The notes beneath the pieces are model-generated. The model did not search any database. It was not told the origin of the DNA and saw nothing but the letters and a program-made list of their open reading frames with translations. A stretch of DNA of 64,000 nucleotides from a bacterium. GTDB lineage: Bacteria; Hinthialibacterota; Hinthialibacteria; OLB16. Of this stretch, positions 17,359 to 41,469 are shown piece by piece (the first letter of the stretch is position 1; each line of letters starts with the position of its first letter). Both the position numbers and the translations under genes were made by a program. The DNA is taken from assembly GCA_022072055.1 (NCBI GenBank), contig JAJVIK010000004.1:1-64000 (forward strand), given 5' to 3'.

Positions 17359-19692
17359 TCAGTACAAATCCCAACCTTCCACGTCGGTCACCACATCCGT
17401 CGCGGTTGGAGAAGGCGCCACCGTGGCCGTTCGGGTGGATGTCGGCGTGGAGGTCTTGGTGGACGAGAGAGTGGGTGTGTCGGCAAACGTGGAGGTGGTC
17501 GAGGGGGTCGCGCTTGCTGTTTCGGTGGGCACGGGGGTGTTCGTGCTTGTGCTCGCTTGAGTGTGGGTCAAAGTGGGAGTGTCAGCCACTGTTGGGGTTT
17601 CGGTGGCCGTCGCCGCGGAGGTTAGGGTTTGAGTCGGCGTTTCGGTGATCGTGGGGGTGGCGGTCCCGGACTGTGTCGGGGTTTGAGTGATCGTCGCGGT
17701 GCGGGTCCCCGTTTGAGTCGCCGTTTCGGTGATCGTGGGGGTGGCGGTCCCGGACTGTGTCGGGGTTTGAGTGATCGTCGCGGTGCGGGTCCCCGTTTGA
17801 GTCGGCGTTTCGGTGATCGTGGGGGTGGCGGTCCCGGACTGTGTCGGGGTTTGAGTGATCGTCGCGGTGCGGGTCCCCGTTTGAGTCGGCGTTTCGGTGA
17901 TCGTGGGGGTGGCGGTCCCGGACTGTGTTGGGGTTTGAGTGATCGTCGCGGTGCGGGTCCCCGTGTGAGTCGGCGTTTCGGTAATAGTTGGAGTGTGGGT
18001 TCCCGTGCGTGACGGGGTGCTCGTGGGAGAGCTGCTCGTGGCGCCCATCTTCACGATCCTTGTTCCCCAGCGCGAGTCGTTTCCCGACACTCTGGCGGTC
18101 TGAACAACCTCATGCGCGCCCCAGAAGGTCTTGTCGTCGTCCGGGTCAATCACGCAGGCCGAATAGTCTCCCCAACGCTCGGGATTGGTCGTGGAGAAGT
18201 CGTCGTATTCCCCAGCGCTGGTGGCAATCACGACAGGGGACTGGAAAGTCCCCCCGGTATCCACAGGATTCCGAGAGACAACCCGCATGTCCACAAACTG
18301 AGTGGAGGAGCTCTGGCTGTAGCAGATCATGGCGTCGCCATCGGAGTTCGCGGATATGGAGGGGAGGAAAGTCCAAGCCCCCGAGTCGCTCCCATCAAGG
18401 GAGCCGGACTGCACCATTGTCGGAGTGGTGGCGGAGCCGGCGGTCGTACTGTTTGTCGAATTGGGATCGATCTCAAACCAGACCACTTCCGTGCGCGAAT
18501 CGCTGTCCGTGTCGGCGCTCAGACTGCACCAGATGCTGTCATTTCTGTAGATCGCATTAATGATCCTGGGAGATAAGGTATCGATGGTGATCCCGGTAAC
18601 GCCCGACTGTGGTGCTCCCGTCGAGATCAAGGTTCCCGCCGTCCACGAGCGCAGGGTGGTGTAGGTCCCGGCCACGAGCGAAGGGCTTCCCGCGGAACCC
18701 GTAAGCTGCCACAAGCGGTAAGCGGTCGAGCCAAAGCGATTGATGAGATAAAAATCCCCATTCAGAGTGGAGCCGAAGGTGTGGCAAGGTTGAACTGTAC
18801 TGGCGCCCGAGGTGGTGACGGTGTCAATATTGAAATCGGTATACGAATAACTTCCGGTAAGAACCGAGGCTTTGTTGAACACTCGGATCTTGCAGCCTCG
18901 GAAGACGCTTCCCGAGTCAAACATGTTTCCGGTAACCACCAGACGACTTGAGTCCGCTCCAATCGAGGGATAATCGAACCAAGTCTCGTAAGTTCCGCCC
19001 GGTCCGGGTCCAAGACCATCCCCCGTGAAGGCCGTGAGCGCGCTTCCCGACAGAAAGGTCCAGTCGCTTCCCGTTGTTGTCCCCGGAGCACTGGAGGTCG
19101 AAACGACGATATGGACATTGCTGGTTCCACCGGAGCCGCCGCTATTCGGAGTCCTTCCAGCCAAAATCACGACGAAGAACCGGCTTGCGTGTTGGTCATA
19201 CAAGACTTTGGGGTCAAACGAATTGTTGGAGGACCCGATGGACCCGAGACTAAGAAAGGCGTCCAAGTCGGTCGAACCTGCCACTGTTGCCCCGGTCTTG
19301 TCGTAGATGGTGATCCCACTATTGGTGACCAAAACCACCCGTCCGGCTGAACCGGTTCCCGGTCCCACGGCCAAGTGGGTGTCCGGGGGTTTGTAGATGA
19401 ATCCCCCGTCAATACTCGGAGATTGGGATTGGCCGCTAAAGGTGAGAGCCGCCGAGGGAGTCTGGGGATTTTCGCCCTGATCCGGTGCAACCGTGCGAAT
19501 TAAGGGAGCTTCCGTCTGCTCGACTTCGGCCAAAGCAACGCCTCCGCCACTCAAGACACGTGGGTAGCCTGACCCTCCTGAAGGGTAGATCGGGTCAAAA
19601 TCCACTGGAACGGGCTCCCCGACAGCGGCACATATTCCGGCAAGGACGAGTAGCGCGCCCCGAATCGCGAGGGGAAGGATATGAAACCTCAT
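17359..19692 (-). CDS. Secreted beta-propeller-like protein with long Thr/Pro repeat stalk
   Basis: The 777-aa product begins with a signal peptide ([21 protein letters not shown]). Residues about 70-545 form a globular, Ser/Thr/Gly-rich domain whose repeating motifs ([29 protein letters not shown]) suggest a beta-propeller. From residue about 550 a low-complexity stalk of the type (TxT)PT follows, with four perfect-period 28-residue units, then degenerate TPT repeats and a terminal GWDLY. The stalk would project the domain from the cell and is a likely O-glycosylation target. Function is not recognised. The 276-bp gap upstream of its start holds no other gene. Confidence 0.75.
17641..17976. 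repeat. Four tandem copies of an 84-bp repeat (28 codons) in the stalk of the secreted protein
   Basis: The string ttcggtgatc begins at 17641, 17725, 17809 and 17893 and recurs as ttcggtaata at 17977, an exact 84-bp period. Copies are nearly identical (single substitutions such as gtcggc/gtcgcc and gtgtcg/gtgttg). The period is a multiple of three, so copy-number change keeps the frame. Degenerate, older repeat material flanks both sides (about 17450-18020). Confidence 0.95.
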
Positions 19693-19968: not shown

Positions 19969-21249
19969 TCACACCCCAGCCAACGCCCCCAGACACACTT
20001 CCTCGAAGCTCGCCAAGTTCGGCTGAATCCGGACCGGCGCGCCGATGTGGTCCGCCACCGCCTCCTGGGTCTTCATCCCATTCCCGGTGATGCTGACCAC
20101 AATCGATTCATCGCGCGGGAGGACTCCCTGTTCGATGAGCTTCTTCGCCACCGCCAGGGTGGTCCCTCCGGCGGTCTCGGTGAAGATGCCCTCAGTCTCC
20201 GCGAGGAGCTTGATGGCATCAATGATCTCCTCATCCGTGGCCTCCTCTCCCCAGCCGCCGGTCTTACGGACAATATCCATCACCTCGTAGCCGTCCGCCG
20301 GGTTTCCGATGGCAATGGATTTGGCGATGGTGTTGGGCTTGACCGGGCGGAAAACCTCGCTGCGCTCCTTGATGGCGGTGACAATTGGGGAGCATCCGGC
20401 GGCCTGCGCGGCGTGGAATCGGGGCTTCGTGTCTTCGACCAGCCCGAGAGTCACGAACTCGCGGAAGGCGCGGTAGACCCTCGGGAGGATGGTCCCACCC
20501 GCGACCGGAACCACGATGTGTTGGGGGAGCCTCCAGCCGAGCTGCTCGGCCACCTCGAAGCCATAAGTCTTCGCCCCTTCGGTGTAATAGGGGCGCAGGT
20601 TGATGTTCACAAAGGCCCAGCGGTATTTCTCCCCAAGTTCGCTGCAGAATCGGTTCACGTCATCATAGTTCCCCTCCACCTCGACGAGCGTCGGATGGTA
20701 AACAAGCGAACCGACAATCTTGCCGATCTCCAGTCCGGCGGGGACGAAGATGTAGGTCTCGAATCCCGCGCGGGCGGCATGGGCGGAGACTGAATTGCCC
20801 AGGTTTCCGGTCGAGGCGCAGGAGACTGTCTTGTAACCGAACTCCTTGGCCTTGGAGAGCGCCACCGAGACCACCCGGTCTTTGTATGAAAAAGTCGGAT
20901 GGTTGCAGGAGTCGTCCTTGATGTAGAGCTCCTCTACTCCGAGGCGCTTGGCGAGACGATCGGCGTGCACCAGCGGCGTGCATCCGGAGTAAAGCCCGAT
21001 TTCAGGCTCGGACTCAACCGGAAGCAGCTCGCGATAGCGCCACAAGTTCTTGGGGCGCGATTCGATCACCTCTCGTGTCAGCTTTCCCCTGAGGAGCTCG
21101 TAGTCGTACACCACCTCCAGAGGCCCGAAATCGAATTCGCAGACATAGATCGGGCTTTTCTCGTAGAAGTGACCGCACTCCTTGCAGCGCAGGCCCTTGA
21201 TGACCCGGGAGGGATCGACCACCGGAGGAATGGGGCGGTGAGGGTGCAT
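19969..21249 (-). CDS. thrC: Threonine-synthase-family PLP enzyme under SAM-riboswitch control
   Basis: This fold-type II PLP enzyme of 426 aa has an N-terminal zinc-ribbon-like segment (C22, C25, C37), a PLP-lysine motif PTFSYKDR (K123), the phosphate/PLP loop SCASTGNLGNSVSAH and a C-terminal VSITGNGMKTQEA. Threonine synthase converts O-phosphohomoserine to threonine. The PLP-lysine context differs from the usual TGSFKDRG. The gene is second in a two-gene operon behind a TusA-like sulfur carrier, and the leader is a SAM-I riboswitch. That context points to methionine/homocysteine synthesis, so the true reaction could be sulfhydrylation of an activated homoserine. The family assignment is firm, the activity open. 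RBS AAAGGA precedes the ATG. Confidence 0.85.
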   Translation of the reverse strand: MHPHRPIPPVVDPSRVIKGLRCKECGHFYEKSPIYVCEFDFGPLEVVYDYELLRGKLTREVIESRPKNLWRYRELLPVESEPEIGLYSGCTPLVHADRLAKRLGVEELYIKDDSCNHPTFSYKDRVVSVALSKAKEFGYKTVSCASTGNLGNSVSAHAARAGFETYIFVPAGLEIGKIVGSLVYHPTLVEVEGNYDDVNRFCSELGEKYRWAFVNINLRPYYTEGAKTYGFEVAEQLGWRLPQHIVVPVAGGTILPRVYRAFREFVTLGLVEDTKPRFHAAQAAGCSPIVTAIKERSEVFRPVKPNTIAKSIAIGNPADGYEVMDIVRKTGGWGEEATDEEIIDAIKLLAETEGIFTETAGGTTLAVAKKLIEQGVLPRDESIVVSITGNGMKTQEAVADHIGAPVRIQPNLASFEEVCLGALAGV

Positions 21250-21279
21250 GATCTTGGTCCTTTCTCTCCGTTTTCTCGG

Positions 21280-21543
21280 TCACGCCTTCCGGATCCACAG
21301 CGCGGCTTGAGCGCCAAGGTCCTCGGCGTGAACGATCTTGTGCCCTTCGGCCTTGACACTCCGGGGGACATTTTTGAGCGGCTCGCCCTTGTCGAGAATG
21401 ACATGCAGAATCTCACCGGCCTGCATGAGCTCCAGGCGCAGCTTGGTCTTCACAAAGTTCATCGGGCAAACCACGCCGGTGAGATTCAGGGCCGCGTGCG
21501 CGGCCGGGGCTGAAACGGGGGGGGCAAGGGTCTCCTGGGACAT
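21280..21543 (-). CDS. TusA-family sulfur carrier protein
   Basis: The ATG at 21543 gives an 87-aa protein. After a 17-residue Ala/Pro leader comes the TusA fold with the persulfide Cys in GVVCPMNFVKTKL (C26-P27), then GEILHVILDKGEPLKNVPRS and EGHKIVH. The CPxNFVKTK variant distinguishes this subgroup from classical tRNA-thiolation TusA. It lies 30 nt upstream of the ThrC-like gene in the same riboswitch-controlled transcript and is probably the sulfur donor for that enzyme, by analogy with CysO/CysM. A longer frame to 21648 runs into the riboswitch terminator and is rejected. Confidence 0.9.
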   Translation of the reverse strand: MSQETLAPPVSAPAAHAALNLTGVVCPMNFVKTKLRLELMQAGEILHVILDKGEPLKNVPRSVKAEGHKIVHAEDLGAQAALWIRKA

Positions 21544-21592
21544 GATACGGACTCCTTGGGCGGTTGCTCTCTCCCCCGGGAAAGGTCTAAAT

Positions 21593-21625
21593 GGAAAAGC
21601 CCTTCTCAGGGTAAGAGAAGGGCTT
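21593..21625 (-). terminator. Riboswitch expression-platform terminator
   Basis: A perfect 11-bp stem, AAGCCCTTCTC / GAGAAGGGCTT on the minus strand, with a 7-nt loop is followed by TTTTCC. It lies between the SAM aptamer and the tusA-like start codon, 50 nt before it, as expected for transcriptional OFF control at high SAM. Confidence 0.92.
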
Positions 21626-21666
21626 CGGAGGGTCCGTGGATACAACAAGACAACCCGACGCGCCTC

Positions 21667-21866
21667 CTCTCATCTCCCGAAAGTTACACGCCCGCTGGGG
21701 TCTCCCCCGGGGCGATCGGAATCCTCGTTGCATCAGGCCGCTGTCTGGTGGGCGACCTGCGAGAACTCCCCTTCGCAGGAATTGGCACCTTCCGGATGGC
21801 CAAGCCATCCGTGGGTTGCCGTGGTTTCTAAGGGCCAGCCCCTCCACCACTCTCGATAAGAGAGAG
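21667..21866 (-). promoter_or_regulatory. SAM-I (S-box) riboswitch aptamer
   Basis: The minus strand carries the S-box core in order: P1 5' strand CTCTTATC, AGAG, GGTGGAGG, the kink-turn/P2 segment CTGGCCC, GAAACCACGGCAACCC, the P3 stem GGATGGC/GCCATCC, the conserved GGTGCCAATTCCTGC, the P4 hairpin CCTGCGA/TCGCAGG, and the P1 3' strand GATGAGAG (21674-21667), which pairs with the 5' strand over 8 bp. About 80 nt of GC-rich sequence is inserted between P4 and the P1 3' strand, making the aptamer about 200 nt. It binds S-adenosylmethionine and should shut off the downstream tusA-thrC transcript. Confidence 0.93.
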
Positions 21867-21881
21867 CTTATCTTGATGATT

Positions 21882-21910
21882 ACGGTACAAACGAAAGGGG
21901 CGGATGTCAA
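21882..21910 (-). promoter_or_regulatory. Promoter of the SAM-riboswitch operon
   Basis: A perfect -35 TTGACA (21910-21905) and TACCGT (21887-21882) are separated by 17 bp. The predicted start near 21875 falls just upstream of aptamer helix P1. Confidence 0.65.
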
Positions 21911-26860: not shown

Positions 26861-27985
26861 TCAATCAGTTCCCCGGACAATCCGCTCGGCGATGAACTCG
26901 GCTCCATCCACACCACCCCGCCAGGGTCTGGGAGGCGACGCCAAAACCTTTTCGAGGGCCTCCCCAAGATCCAGCTCCTCGACCTTTCTCGATTCCAGAA
27001 CCGCGACCTGGGGGTAGTTCGCGACCACTCGTTTGACCACCTCGAATTCCCGGAAATCCTCCCTTGAGTCGAGAAGAATCGGAGTGGCGGTGGCCATGCA
27101 CTCCGAGAGGATTCCATACCCCGGCTTGGTAACCACGCCATCGGCGGCGAGGACCAGGTCGGGGTGGTAGAGATCCGGGGCGTGGAGGATCCAGAAGTTC
27201 CGCGCCAAGGGATGCCGGATCAACTCCTTTTTCGCCAGTCCCGGGGAGAGCTCGACCGGGCGCGCCACGCGCACAAACTGGAGCGGTTCAAAATCCTTCA
27301 GCCGCGGGAGGTTGGGAATCTCGCGCTCGATCCCACCGAAAGTCACCACAAAGTAACGAACATCCGCCTCAAAACCATACTCCTCGCGGGCCGCTTCACG
27401 GGGTTTCCGAGGGTGGCGGACCAGCAGGGGGGATTCCACTGAACCGAACGGAAAAGTTCCGGGATCGGAAAAGGGCAAGCGGAAGTTGGCGGTGGCCTCC
27501 CCCATCATCTCGCGCAGGGTTTGGACAACCCCATCGGGGCCGAAGCCCACAAACAGCGGCTCGAAGATCCAGTCCCAGGTGAAATTGCTGACACCATAGG
27601 CTGGAAGTCCGGCCCGCCGGGCCGCCGCGATGGCGAGCGGCGAGATGTCCGACAAGACCAAGTCCACCCCCTCCTCCCGGAGCCAATCCGCCTCGCTCGC
27701 GAGGAGGTTGTCGGCCTCAGCGACTTTCCTGGCGGCGGCGTGGCGCGTGGCCGCCGGATCGATCCGATACCCGGTGGAGTGCTTGGGGTGGATGTCGAGC
27801 GGGGACGGGAATTGCTTGTGGGGACGATGGAGTTCCTTCTCGAACAACCAGTCCGGGGCGTTTGAGCGCAGGAGGAAGTCCCAATCCGGAGGGAAGGCCT
27901 CGATCAAGGCCATGGAGCGAGTGGAGTGCCCAAAGCCGTGCGAGTCGATATAGAAGGCCGCGCGCGCCACCCCGCGGGGCCTCAT
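26861..27985 (-). CDS. GT-B-fold glycosyltransferase (MurG/GT28-like)
   Basis: This cytoplasmic 374-aa protein has an N-terminal glycine loop, YIDSHGFGHSTRSMAL, resembling the acceptor-side loop of MurG and the N-terminal half of arabinokinases. The C-terminal donor-binding motif is DGVVTKPGYGILSECMATATPILLD. It overlaps the homoserine dehydrogenase gene by 4 nt (ATGA), so it is the last gene of the lipoyl-PfkB-hom operon. Donor and acceptor are unknown. It is an odd companion for an amino-acid biosynthesis gene. Confidence 0.75.
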   Translation of the reverse strand: MRPRGVARAAFYIDSHGFGHSTRSMALIEAFPPDWDFLLRSNAPDWLFEKELHRPHKQFPSPLDIHPKHSTGYRIDPAATRHAAARKVAEADNLLASEADWLREEGVDLVLSDISPLAIAAARRAGLPAYGVSNFTWDWIFEPLFVGFGPDGVVQTLREMMGEATANFRLPFSDPGTFPFGSVESPLLVRHPRKPREAAREEYGFEADVRYFVVTFGGIEREIPNLPRLKDFEPLQFVRVARPVELSPGLAKKELIRHPLARNFWILHAPDLYHPDLVLAADGVVTKPGYGILSECMATATPILLDSREDFREFEVVKRVVANYPQVAVLESRKVEELDLGEALEKVLASPPRPWRGGVDGAEFIAERIVRGTD

Positions 27986-29283
27986 TCAAAGTCTTCGATC
28001 CGAATCGAGTACGGCAGATCGGCCATGAATTCCATCTCTCCGATCTTCTCCAGCGCGCGAGCCATGGCCGAGTGCGGGGATTCATGCGTGGTGATAACCA
28101 CCGGAACCCCTTGGTGCGATTCGTGACGTTCCTTCTGGATGATCGAGGCGATGCTGATTGACTGCTCGGCCAGGGCGGTTGCCACGCTGGCAATCACGCC
28201 TGGGCGATCTTCCACCACCAGGCGCAGATAGTGCGCGCAGACACTGTCATCTATCGACTTCACCCGGATTTCCTGGTGGTCGAAGGTGTAGAAATTCTTT
28301 CGGTCGGGGCCGCGTTGAATCTGACGAGCGGCCTCCATCAGGTCAGCCGCCACCGCCGCGCCGGTGGCATCCCCACCCGCACCTTGACCGAAGAACATCA
28401 CCGGCCCCAAGGGATTGCCCACGATCAAGACCGCGTTGTAGACCCCGGACACCGCCGCCAGTTGGGACTGGAGCGGAATCAGGACCGGATGGCAGCGAAC
28501 CTCCAGGCGGTCGCCTTCCTTCTTGGCTATCGCGAGCAACTTGATGCGGTACCCCAGCTCGCGCGCGGTTGAGAGGTCAAAGGCGGTGAGTCGAGTGATC
28601 CCTTCGCGGTGGACCTCCTCGAATCGGATCTTGCAGTCATAGGCGAGCTGGCTGAGGAGGACCAGCTTGTGAGTGGTGTCGTGCCCCTCGATGTCGTAGG
28701 TCGGGTCCGCCTCGGCATAACCCTTGGCCTTGGCCTCGATCAGGGCGCGCTCGAAATCGAGATTCGACTCCTCCATGCGTGTGAGGATGTAATTGGCCGT
28801 CCCGTTGAGGATGCCGTAAATGCGCTCAATCTCCGTGGAGCAAACCCCGGTCCGCATGGCCTGGATGATCGGGATCCCGCCTCCCACCGCCGCCTCGAAC
28901 AGGAGCAGGCGCTTCTTCTCGGCGGCGAGATCAAAGAGCTCATGGCCCCGCAGGGCCAGGAGCGCCTTGTTGGCGGTCACCACATCTTTCCCCGCGCGCA
29001 GCGACCGGCTGATCAGATCGTGCGCGAAGCCGGTTCCGCCGACCAGTTCGACCACGATGTCGATCTCCGGGTCCTCCAGGATTTCCCTGGCGTCGGTCAC
29101 CATACGGATGCCCGTGGTGTCGGCGTTTCTTGGCGTGGTGATGTCCAGGTCGGCGATGGTTTTAATCCGGATCGGGATTCCGGCGCGGGCCTCGATCTGA
29201 CGGCGATTGCGCTTGAGGCACTGGACCAGGCCGGTCCCCACCACCCCAAACCCCACAAGACCCACATGGACCACGGACGACAT
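27982..29283 (-). CDS. hom: Homoserine dehydrogenase
   Basis: Hom reduces aspartate-4-semialdehyde to homoserine, the branch-point precursor of threonine and methionine. The 433-aa product has an NAD(P) Rossmann loop (VGLVGFGVVGTGL), the catalytic block TANKALLALRGHELF, GGGIPIIQAMR, the ILNGTANYILTRM signature and a C-terminal ACT domain (LRLVVEDRPGVIASVATALAE) that normally mediates threonine feedback. It follows the PfkB gene by 12 bp and overlaps the glycosyltransferase start. Homoserine kinase (GHMP ThrB) is not seen nearby. Confidence 0.95.
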   Translation of the reverse strand: MSSVVHVGLVGFGVVGTGLVQCLKRNRRQIEARAGIPIRIKTIADLDITTPRNADTTGIRMVTDAREILEDPEIDIVVELVGGTGFAHDLISRSLRAGKDVVTANKALLALRGHELFDLAAEKKRLLLFEAAVGGGIPIIQAMRTGVCSTEIERIYGILNGTANYILTRMEESNLDFERALIEAKAKGYAEADPTYDIEGHDTTHKLVLLSQLAYDCKIRFEEVHREGITRLTAFDLSTARELGYRIKLLAIAKKEGDRLEVRCHPVLIPLQSQLAAVSGVYNAVLIVGNPLGPVMFFGQGAGGDATGAAVAADLMEAARQIQRGPDRKNFYTFDHQEIRVKSIDDSVCAHYLRLVVEDRPGVIASVATALAEQSISIASIIQKERHESHQGVPVVITTHESPHSAMARALEKIGEMEFMADLPYSIRIEDFE

Positions 29284-40467: not shown

Positions 40468-41469
40468 ATGCAACCCCGAATCAAGACCACGGTTGTCGGC
40501 AGTTATCCGGTCCCGGACTGGCTCGCGGCCTATCCCACCGAGCAGGCGCTGATCGACGCCACGATGGTGGTGTTCAAGATTCAGGAGAACGCCGGGATCG
40601 ACCTGGTCGCCGATGGCGAACTGTATCGTTTCGACATCAACCATCCCGACACCAACGGGATGATCGAGTACTTTGTCCGTCCCTTGGAGAATGTCCGCTC
40701 CTCCCTCTCCCGTTCGGAGCTGCTCCATTTCCAGGAGCTGGAGGGGATGAGCTTCCGGAGCAAGCCCAGCGCGCTGGTGGAGGGGGAAATCGGGGAGGGG
40801 ACCCTCAACCTGGGAGCGGACTATCGCCGGGCGCGCGCGCTTACCTCGCGCCCGATGAAGTTCACTGTCACAGGGCCGCACATGCTCTGCAAGACTCTCC
40901 TCGATCTGCACTATGGCTCCAAGCGCGATCTGTGCATGGCGCTCGCCGAGGTGCTGGCCGACCAGGCGGCCGAGATCGACGCCGAGGTGGTGCAGATTGA
41001 CGAAGCCAACATCACCGGCCATCCGGACGAGGCCGAATGGGCGTTGGAGTGCATCAATGTGGTTCTGGACGCTGTCCCCACCATCCCGGCGGTGCATCTC
41101 TGCTTCGGAAACTATGGCGGACAGACCATCCAGAAGGGGGGCTGGGATGCCCTGATCGGCTTCCTGAGCGGGCTGCACGCCGACCATGTGTTGTTGGAGG
41201 TCGCGCACCGCGGGAGCTGGGAGCTTGAGTTCCTGGCTCGGATCAACCCGGAGGTTGGAATCGGCCTGGGGGTGGTGGACATCAAAAGCAACACGGTCGA
41301 GACCCCCGAGGAGATCGCGCGACGGATCGAAGAGGCGGCGCGCGTGATCGGGGTGGACCGGATTCGATGCGTGAACCCCGACTGCGGGTTCTGGATGCTA
41401 AAGCGCAGCGTGGCCGACCGGAAAATCCGCGCCCTGGTGAACGGGAGGGACCTCTTTGAAGGGCGATAG
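40468..41469 (+). CDS. Core-type (short) cobalamin-independent methionine synthase family protein
   Basis: This 333-aa protein corresponds to the C-terminal catalytic half of Met[11 protein letters not shown] at the N-terminus, zinc ligands H210/C212 in HLCFGNYGG and C306 in [10 protein letters not shown], and [16 protein letters not shown] in the barrel. The N-terminal MetE domain is absent. Short, core MetE proteins are known to make methionine from homocysteine, in characterised cases with a corrinoid-bound methyl donor. GGAGG precedes the ATG. Its 3' end overlaps galT by 14 nt. Together with hom and the SAM-riboswitch operon it points to an active methionine pathway. Confidence 0.85.

Follow-up and report, generated by a model that had tools for sequence, protein, structure and literature searches.

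A putative SAM-I riboswitch-controlled tusA-metM operon for carrier-dependent homocysteine synthesis in an uncultured bacterial lineage

A route to homocysteine from O-phosphohomoserine was reportedly described in Streptomyces albulus by Hasebe et al. in 2024. In Mycobacterium tuberculosis, CysM is a fold-type II PLP enzyme that draws sulfur for an O-phosphorylated amino acid from the thiocarboxylate of CysO, a carrier of the ThiS fold, and in Wolinella succinogenes, HcyS/HcyD and MetY (PF01053, fold type I) support a carrier-thiocarboxylate synthesis of homocysteine via O-acetylhomoserine. S-boxes, or SAM-I riboswitches, typically control methionine and SAM genes.

Hasebe et al. reported homocysteine synthesis by MetM and MetO of S. 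albulus in 2024 (as cited in PMC12172450). In the citing paper, MetM of this species is presented as a homocysteine synthase whose gene has a SAM riboswitch upstream, and metO as a sulfur-carrier gene (PMC12172450). The idea of such a homocysteine synthase is therefore not new. A relay of a related kind is known from E. coli, where MoaD, once activated by the likewise rhodanese-less MoeB, receives its sulfur from TusA-SSH (PMC5372717).

The locus described here lies in a stretch of 64,000 nucleotides (positions 1 to 64,000 of contig JAJVIK010000004.1, assembly GCA_022072055.1; hereafter the window). Like the S. albulus system, as far as the latter is outlined in the citing paper, it combines a ThrC-family enzyme, a ThiS/MoaD-type carrier and an S-box upstream of metM, with O-phosphohomoserine as the presumed substrate and no canonical homocysteine genes. 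Unlike the outlined S. albulus system, the host operon is headed by tusA, and metO and the activating-enzyme gene lie elsewhere in the host genome; the host is also an uncultured lineage far from actinomycetes, and its MetM is 52% identical to that of the actinomycete Nonomuraea. The proposed reaction shares with CysM/CysO a fold-type II PLP enzyme, a ThiS-fold carrier thiocarboxylate and an O-phosphorylated amino-acid substrate, whereas CysM/CysO makes cysteine from O-phosphoserine and belongs to another PLP subfamily. Dependence of homocysteine synthesis on a carrier thiocarboxylate would be common to the Wolinella HcyS/HcyD and MetY system, but the host genome has no PF01053 enzyme, and a MetY-type HcyS pathway was dropped for that reason. 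The closest parallel for TusA is the E. coli IscS-TusA-MoeB-MoaD relay, with its TusA, its rhodanese-less MoeB-type E1 and its MoaD-fold carrier ending in GG (PMC5372717); in contrast to that relay, the proposed end acceptor here would be MetM with O-phosphohomoserine rather than molybdopterin synthase, and the relay step is itself a prediction.

The operon and its leader

The features that bear on the analysis are as follows.

21862-21764, minus strand: core of a SAM-I (S-box) aptamer, scored with Rfam model RF00162
21674-21663, minus strand: GATGAGAGGAGG, taken from duplex energies as the likely 3' strand of P1
21626-21596, minus strand: intrinsic terminator hairpin of 11 bp with a U-rich tail, -19.8 to -20.4 kcal/mol
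21543-21280, minus strand: tusA-like sulfur-transfer gene, 87 aa, with CPMNFVKTK (PF01206)
21249-19969, minus strand: metM-type gene, 426 aa, fold-type II PLP enzyme of the ThrC superfamily, assigned from tree, active-site columns and neighbourhoods
27982-29283, minus strand: homoserine dehydrogenase (NF004976, 506 bits), upstream homoserine supply, without an S-box of its own
40468-41469, plus strand: core-MetE-type methionine synthase (PF01717, 79.6 bits), unlinked to the operon
G000:C2:229926-230222 of the host genome: MetO gene (PF02597, 55.7 bits), its product ending in SIVPAIAGG

The full S-box aptamer proposed in the initial annotation is borne out by an RF00162 score of 58.4 bits (E = 6e-11; gathering score 44.4). 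It is the sole match in an Rfam search of the window and the only S-box in the whole 5.86 Mb host genome. In the Rfam alignment, P4 carries a long insertion, because of which the model appears to close P1 too early. The true 3' strand of P1 is probably GATGAGAGGAGG, which forms a duplex of -16.3 kcal/mol with the P1 5' strand and a stronger one, of -30.3 kcal/mol, with the 5' arm of the terminator. A GTGTAACTT(T/C)CGGGAGATGAGAG block is found in three of four leaders (the window and two of three relatives). The 11-bp intrinsic terminator was likewise recovered as first described, at about -20 kcal/mol, and a comparable hairpin is present in the leader of the sister genome. Competing antiterminator and terminator pairings are predicted downstream of the aptamer, and the predicted sharing of the P1 3' strand with the antiterminator/terminator is the classical SAM-I OFF-switch layout. 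The consensus promoter claimed in the initial annotation did not hold up: TTGACA at 21910-21905 is a good -35 element, but the -10 element 17 nt further on is TACCGT, which matches at only three of six positions, and a sigma-70-like site was not found in a promoter scan.

These leader elements suggest that the operon is regulated by SAM, the large P4 insertion of the aptamer being a point against. When SAM is low, P1 would stay unformed and its 3' strand would pair with the 5' arm of the terminator, allowing read-through of the operon, whereas high SAM would let the terminator form.

The two genes behind the leader correspond to those called initially. The ATG of tusA is preceded by AAGGAG. 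Its product scores 63.7 bits against PF01206 (cut-off 28.6), has a cysteine motif, CPMN, that fits CPx(P/N), and is the only PF01206 match in a search of the host genome. The metM gene starts 30 nt after tusA, and its product scores 230 bits against PF00291 and 284 bits against the thrC model TIGR00260, above the cut-off of the latter; the PLP-lysine motif reads PTFSYKDRV instead of PTGSFKDRG. A core-MetE-like gene is also present at the 40.5 kb position noted initially. Its product reaches no NCBIfam cut-off, the closest being that of PRK04326 methionine synthase (153.6 vs 406 bits), and probably catalyzes the next step of the pathway. Beside the operon, positions 17359-19692 encode a large protein that looks secreted and contains long Thr/Pro repeats.

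The MetM clade and routes to homocysteine

Eighty close relatives of the window MetM, with 53-82% identity, were obtained in a scan of a contig collection and come from Omnitrophota, Binatota, Nitrospirota, Planctomycetota (Brocadia), Dadabacteria and other groups. The Nonomuraea MetM was added by a plasmid search. Its record, NZ_LT559118.1, is entered in PLSDB as "Nonomuraea plasmid I", is 11.85 Mb long and has a GroEL gene close to metM-metO; given the chromosome-like size and the GroEL gene, it is probably a mislabelled chromosome. In a maximum-likelihood tree of 39 rows, the window protein falls inside a MetM clade of 31 rows that is split from ThrC at a support of 100/99; several branches are long, which makes the order inside the clade less sure. 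The clade takes its name from the context of members such as the S-box- and MetO-linked Nonomuraea protein, not from the S. albulus MetM sequence.

MetM and ThrC proteins share about 33-36% identity. Active-site columns were compared over 84 clade sequences in Thermus ThrC numbering, with the Thermus sequence taken from the alignment. The catalytic residues K61, N87 and T317 are retained, and the clade resembles the canonical threonine synthase of Thermus thermophilus (1UIM) in its fold, its PLP lysine and several catalytic residues. It differs from the canonical enzyme by T88L, S155N, N157R, R160Y and S290G, which are uniform in 84/84 sequences, and by replacement of N188 with S or G across the clade. 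The phosphate-site residues T88/S155/R160/N188 of canonical ThrC are accordingly absent from the window protein, which has L/N/Y/G at these positions. Since T88, S155, R160 and N188, which we take to be substrate contacts in ThrC, are all changed, the alignment points to a concerted remodelling of the substrate pocket in the MetM clade.

The host genome encodes five PALP enzymes, namely CysK, a canonical ThrC, MetM, TrpB and a TrpB2-like protein. The separate ThrC has the motif NPTGSFKDRG and Thermus-like residues at most of the compared sites, and homoserine kinase, ThrB, is found at 257.5 bits. The initial annotation had pointed to metB, metY, metZ and a second thrC as the genes that bear on its reading, and the outcome of that check favors it. 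A second, canonical thrC is present, and the host genome has no PF01053 enzyme (the metB/Y/Z type) at E <= 1e-10, with only weak partial matches, and neither metX nor HcyBio (PF01837), these being the homocysteine families covered. The HcyBio route was dropped, there being no PF01837 protein in the host genome. Judged by the families covered, MetM is the sole visible homocysteine route of the host; genome completeness is 96.6%, and an unseen metX/metY is therefore possible.

Gene content varies among relatives. Two that carry the operon, G002 and the sister genome G012, also have adjacent metX and PF01053 genes, so that the MetM route would be redundant there. Among 33 metM-bearing genomes of other groups, several of them small assemblies or of unstated completeness, PF01053 enzymes at E <= 1e-40 are missing from 26. 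A further relative, G011, which has no metM, metX or PF01053 gene, carries two HcyBio (PF01837) genes (C529:4819-5898 and C823:4553-5632), which suggests that homocysteine is made by at least three different routes within the host phylum.

The score against TIGR00260 would suit an ordinary threonine synthase under unusual SAM control. So would the findings on Microcystis: MetM homologues occur in cyanobacteria, and a Microcystis ThrC with 51.6% identity to the S. albulus MetM forms threonine in vitro, the authors of that study being doubtful that it acts fully as MetM in the cells they examined (PMC12172450). The threonine result counts against a MetM role here. Nevertheless, an ordinary threonine synthase is very improbable, given the separate host ThrC with its canonical motif and Thermus-like residues, the uniformly altered phosphate site of the clade, the association of metM with genes for sulfur carriers and E1 enzymes and with S-boxes (which typically govern methionine and SAM genes) and the lack of PF01053 homocysteine enzymes in most metM carriers.

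The threonine formed by the Microcystis homologue (PMC12172450) and the catalytic residues common to MetM and ThrC would also fit an enzyme with two activities, which turns O-phosphohomoserine into both threonine and homocysteine depending on the supply of sulfur carrier. We consider this quite unlikely, as the dedicated host ThrC makes a threonine role unnecessary and SAM control would tie threonine supply to methionine. Cysteate synthase is a ThrC-family enzyme as well, and its model, TIGR03844, matches the window protein at 68.9 bits, far below both the cut-off of 324.9 and the scores of the thrC models. Cysteate synthase was dropped because of this low score, and with S-box control pointing to methionine, a cysteate-synthase-like or other sulfonucleophile-adding relative of ThrC is extremely improbable.

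We thus favor, with considerable confidence, an O-phosphohomoserine- and carrier-dependent homocysteine synthase as the role of the ThrC-like protein, and this part of the central proposal of the initial annotation stands. In the pathway, with activities assigned from sequence, homoserine dehydrogenase (Hom) and ThrB of the host would make O-phosphohomoserine. MetM would eliminate phosphate from it and then add sulfur rather than water, yielding homocysteine, which the core-MetE-type enzyme would methylate.

Sulfur carriers and the place of TusA

The host MetO is 48% identical to the Nonomuraea MetO, and its gene, on C2, is unlinked to metM. The sister genome also has a MetO gene, the product of which ends in AIAGG like host MetO. 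Neighbors were counted with a seed-only HMM at 84 clade loci, up to 600 bp downstream of metM, and a ThiS/MoaD-fold, MetO-like gene was found at 79 of them. The five exceptions include two loci at contig edges (L036 and L101) and those of the window and its sister (L025), whose MetO lies elsewhere. The gene order is S-box - metM - metO in Nonomuraea; S-box - thiF - metM - metO - cysK-like gene - NIL-type gene in Binatota; and cysK/M - thiF - metM - metO ... thiF - JAMM in Nitrospira moscoviensis. Some of the neighbor names in Binatota and Nitrospira were confirmed with Pfam, and the remaining ones come from reading the sequences. The N. moscoviensis cluster (L091:3145-8236) contains a cysteine synthase gene, metM, metO, two thiF genes and a gene for a JAMM-type metalloprotease, and has the look of a joint locus for carrier-dependent synthesis of cysteine and homocysteine.

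Across all groups, an S-box precedes metM at 21 of the 36 loci scanned, among them all scanned planctomycete loci of Brocadia type and all of Binatota type; none was found at the scanned Nitrospira locus or at the scanned Omnitrophota loci outside the phylum of the window. In the host phylum, the four genomes with metM have one S-box each, always on the tusA-metM operon, and a search of four metM-less relatives found none. The order S-box - tusA - metM occurs in three other genomes of the phylum, a recurrence that, on gene order, is more than chance.

In two of these genomes (G001 and G002), the order extends on one strand to S-box - tusA - metM - metO - thiF. Three metM-less genomes of the same class (G003, G004 and G007) have a CPYNYVK-type tusA directly before a rhodanese-less thiF of the same kind, and in a fourth (G006) the locus is interrupted by a contig edge. 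Because tusA-thiF is retained in the three metM-less genomes, the conserved partner of tusA, as read from gene neighborhoods, is the ThiF/MoeB-type E1. The nearest relative of that E1 in the host is a rhodanese-less thiF (L162:4230-5301; G000:C1:451229-452300), which is followed by a NIL-domain gene. From the arrangement in relatives, we infer that the unlinked host metO and thiF are partners of metM.

NIL-type genes also lie 3' of metO in several relatives. The archaeal route to homocysteine includes NIL-domain proteins, and a link of NIL-domain genes to homocysteine synthesis is possible.

In the reading of the initial annotation, TusA-bound sulfur goes straight to the ThrC-family enzyme; homocysteine would then be made from a persulfide carrier, with no need of MetO or a thiocarboxylate. 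This would agree with the place of tusA, which shares the S-box with metM and precedes it by 30 nt, with its being the only tusA of the genome, and with metO being unlinked in the window genome and in the examined fragment of the sister. However, host and sister both retain a MetO ending in AIAGG, G001 and G002 carry tusA and metO together with metM, and tusA pairs with thiF in the metM-less relatives, which makes the E1 its conserved partner. With MetO adjoining metM in 79/84 relatives, present elsewhere in the host, and with an E1 as the neighbor of tusA, direct donation by TusA is unlikely, and this part of the initial proposal is not upheld.

Delivery of sulfur through MetO is the reading that we prefer. 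Sulfur would probably pass from the TusA persulfide to MetO~AMP on ThiF, as it does from TusA to MoaD/MoeB in E. coli, and ThiF would make the MetO thiocarboxylate (MetO-COSH) that feeds MetM. On balance we lean toward this TusA to E1/MetO step, and regard as probable the model as a whole, that of a SAM-repressed S-box - tusA - metM methionine operon in which MetM is fed from TusA via MetO. TusA is not required in general, because most metM loci have no tusA alongside. At an Omnitrophota locus (L038:191-466), a TusA-family protein encoded upstream of metM lacks the cysteine (GAVSPDGYRK vs GxxCPxN); its sequence is incompatible with a persulfide role, which counts against a relay there. In the literature collection that we searched, there was no known link of TusA to ThrC or to homocysteine, and nothing addressing the homocysteine route of Nitrospira and Brocadia.

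The apparent novelty lies in an operon headed by tusA, in the evidence tying TusA to the E1, and in a wider range for the pathway, which now takes in several uncultured phyla. By sequence criteria, the MetM pathway would extend to Nitrospira, anammox Brocadia, Binatota and Omnitrophota, which suggests that methionine is made in these bacteria without the textbook homocysteine enzymes. The "threonine synthase" annotations of metM in these groups are probably wrong, and such labels can mislead predictions of auxotrophy. TusA, ThiF, MetO and MetM together form a candidate four-protein module that would link the TusA persulfide relay to amino-acid biosynthesis.
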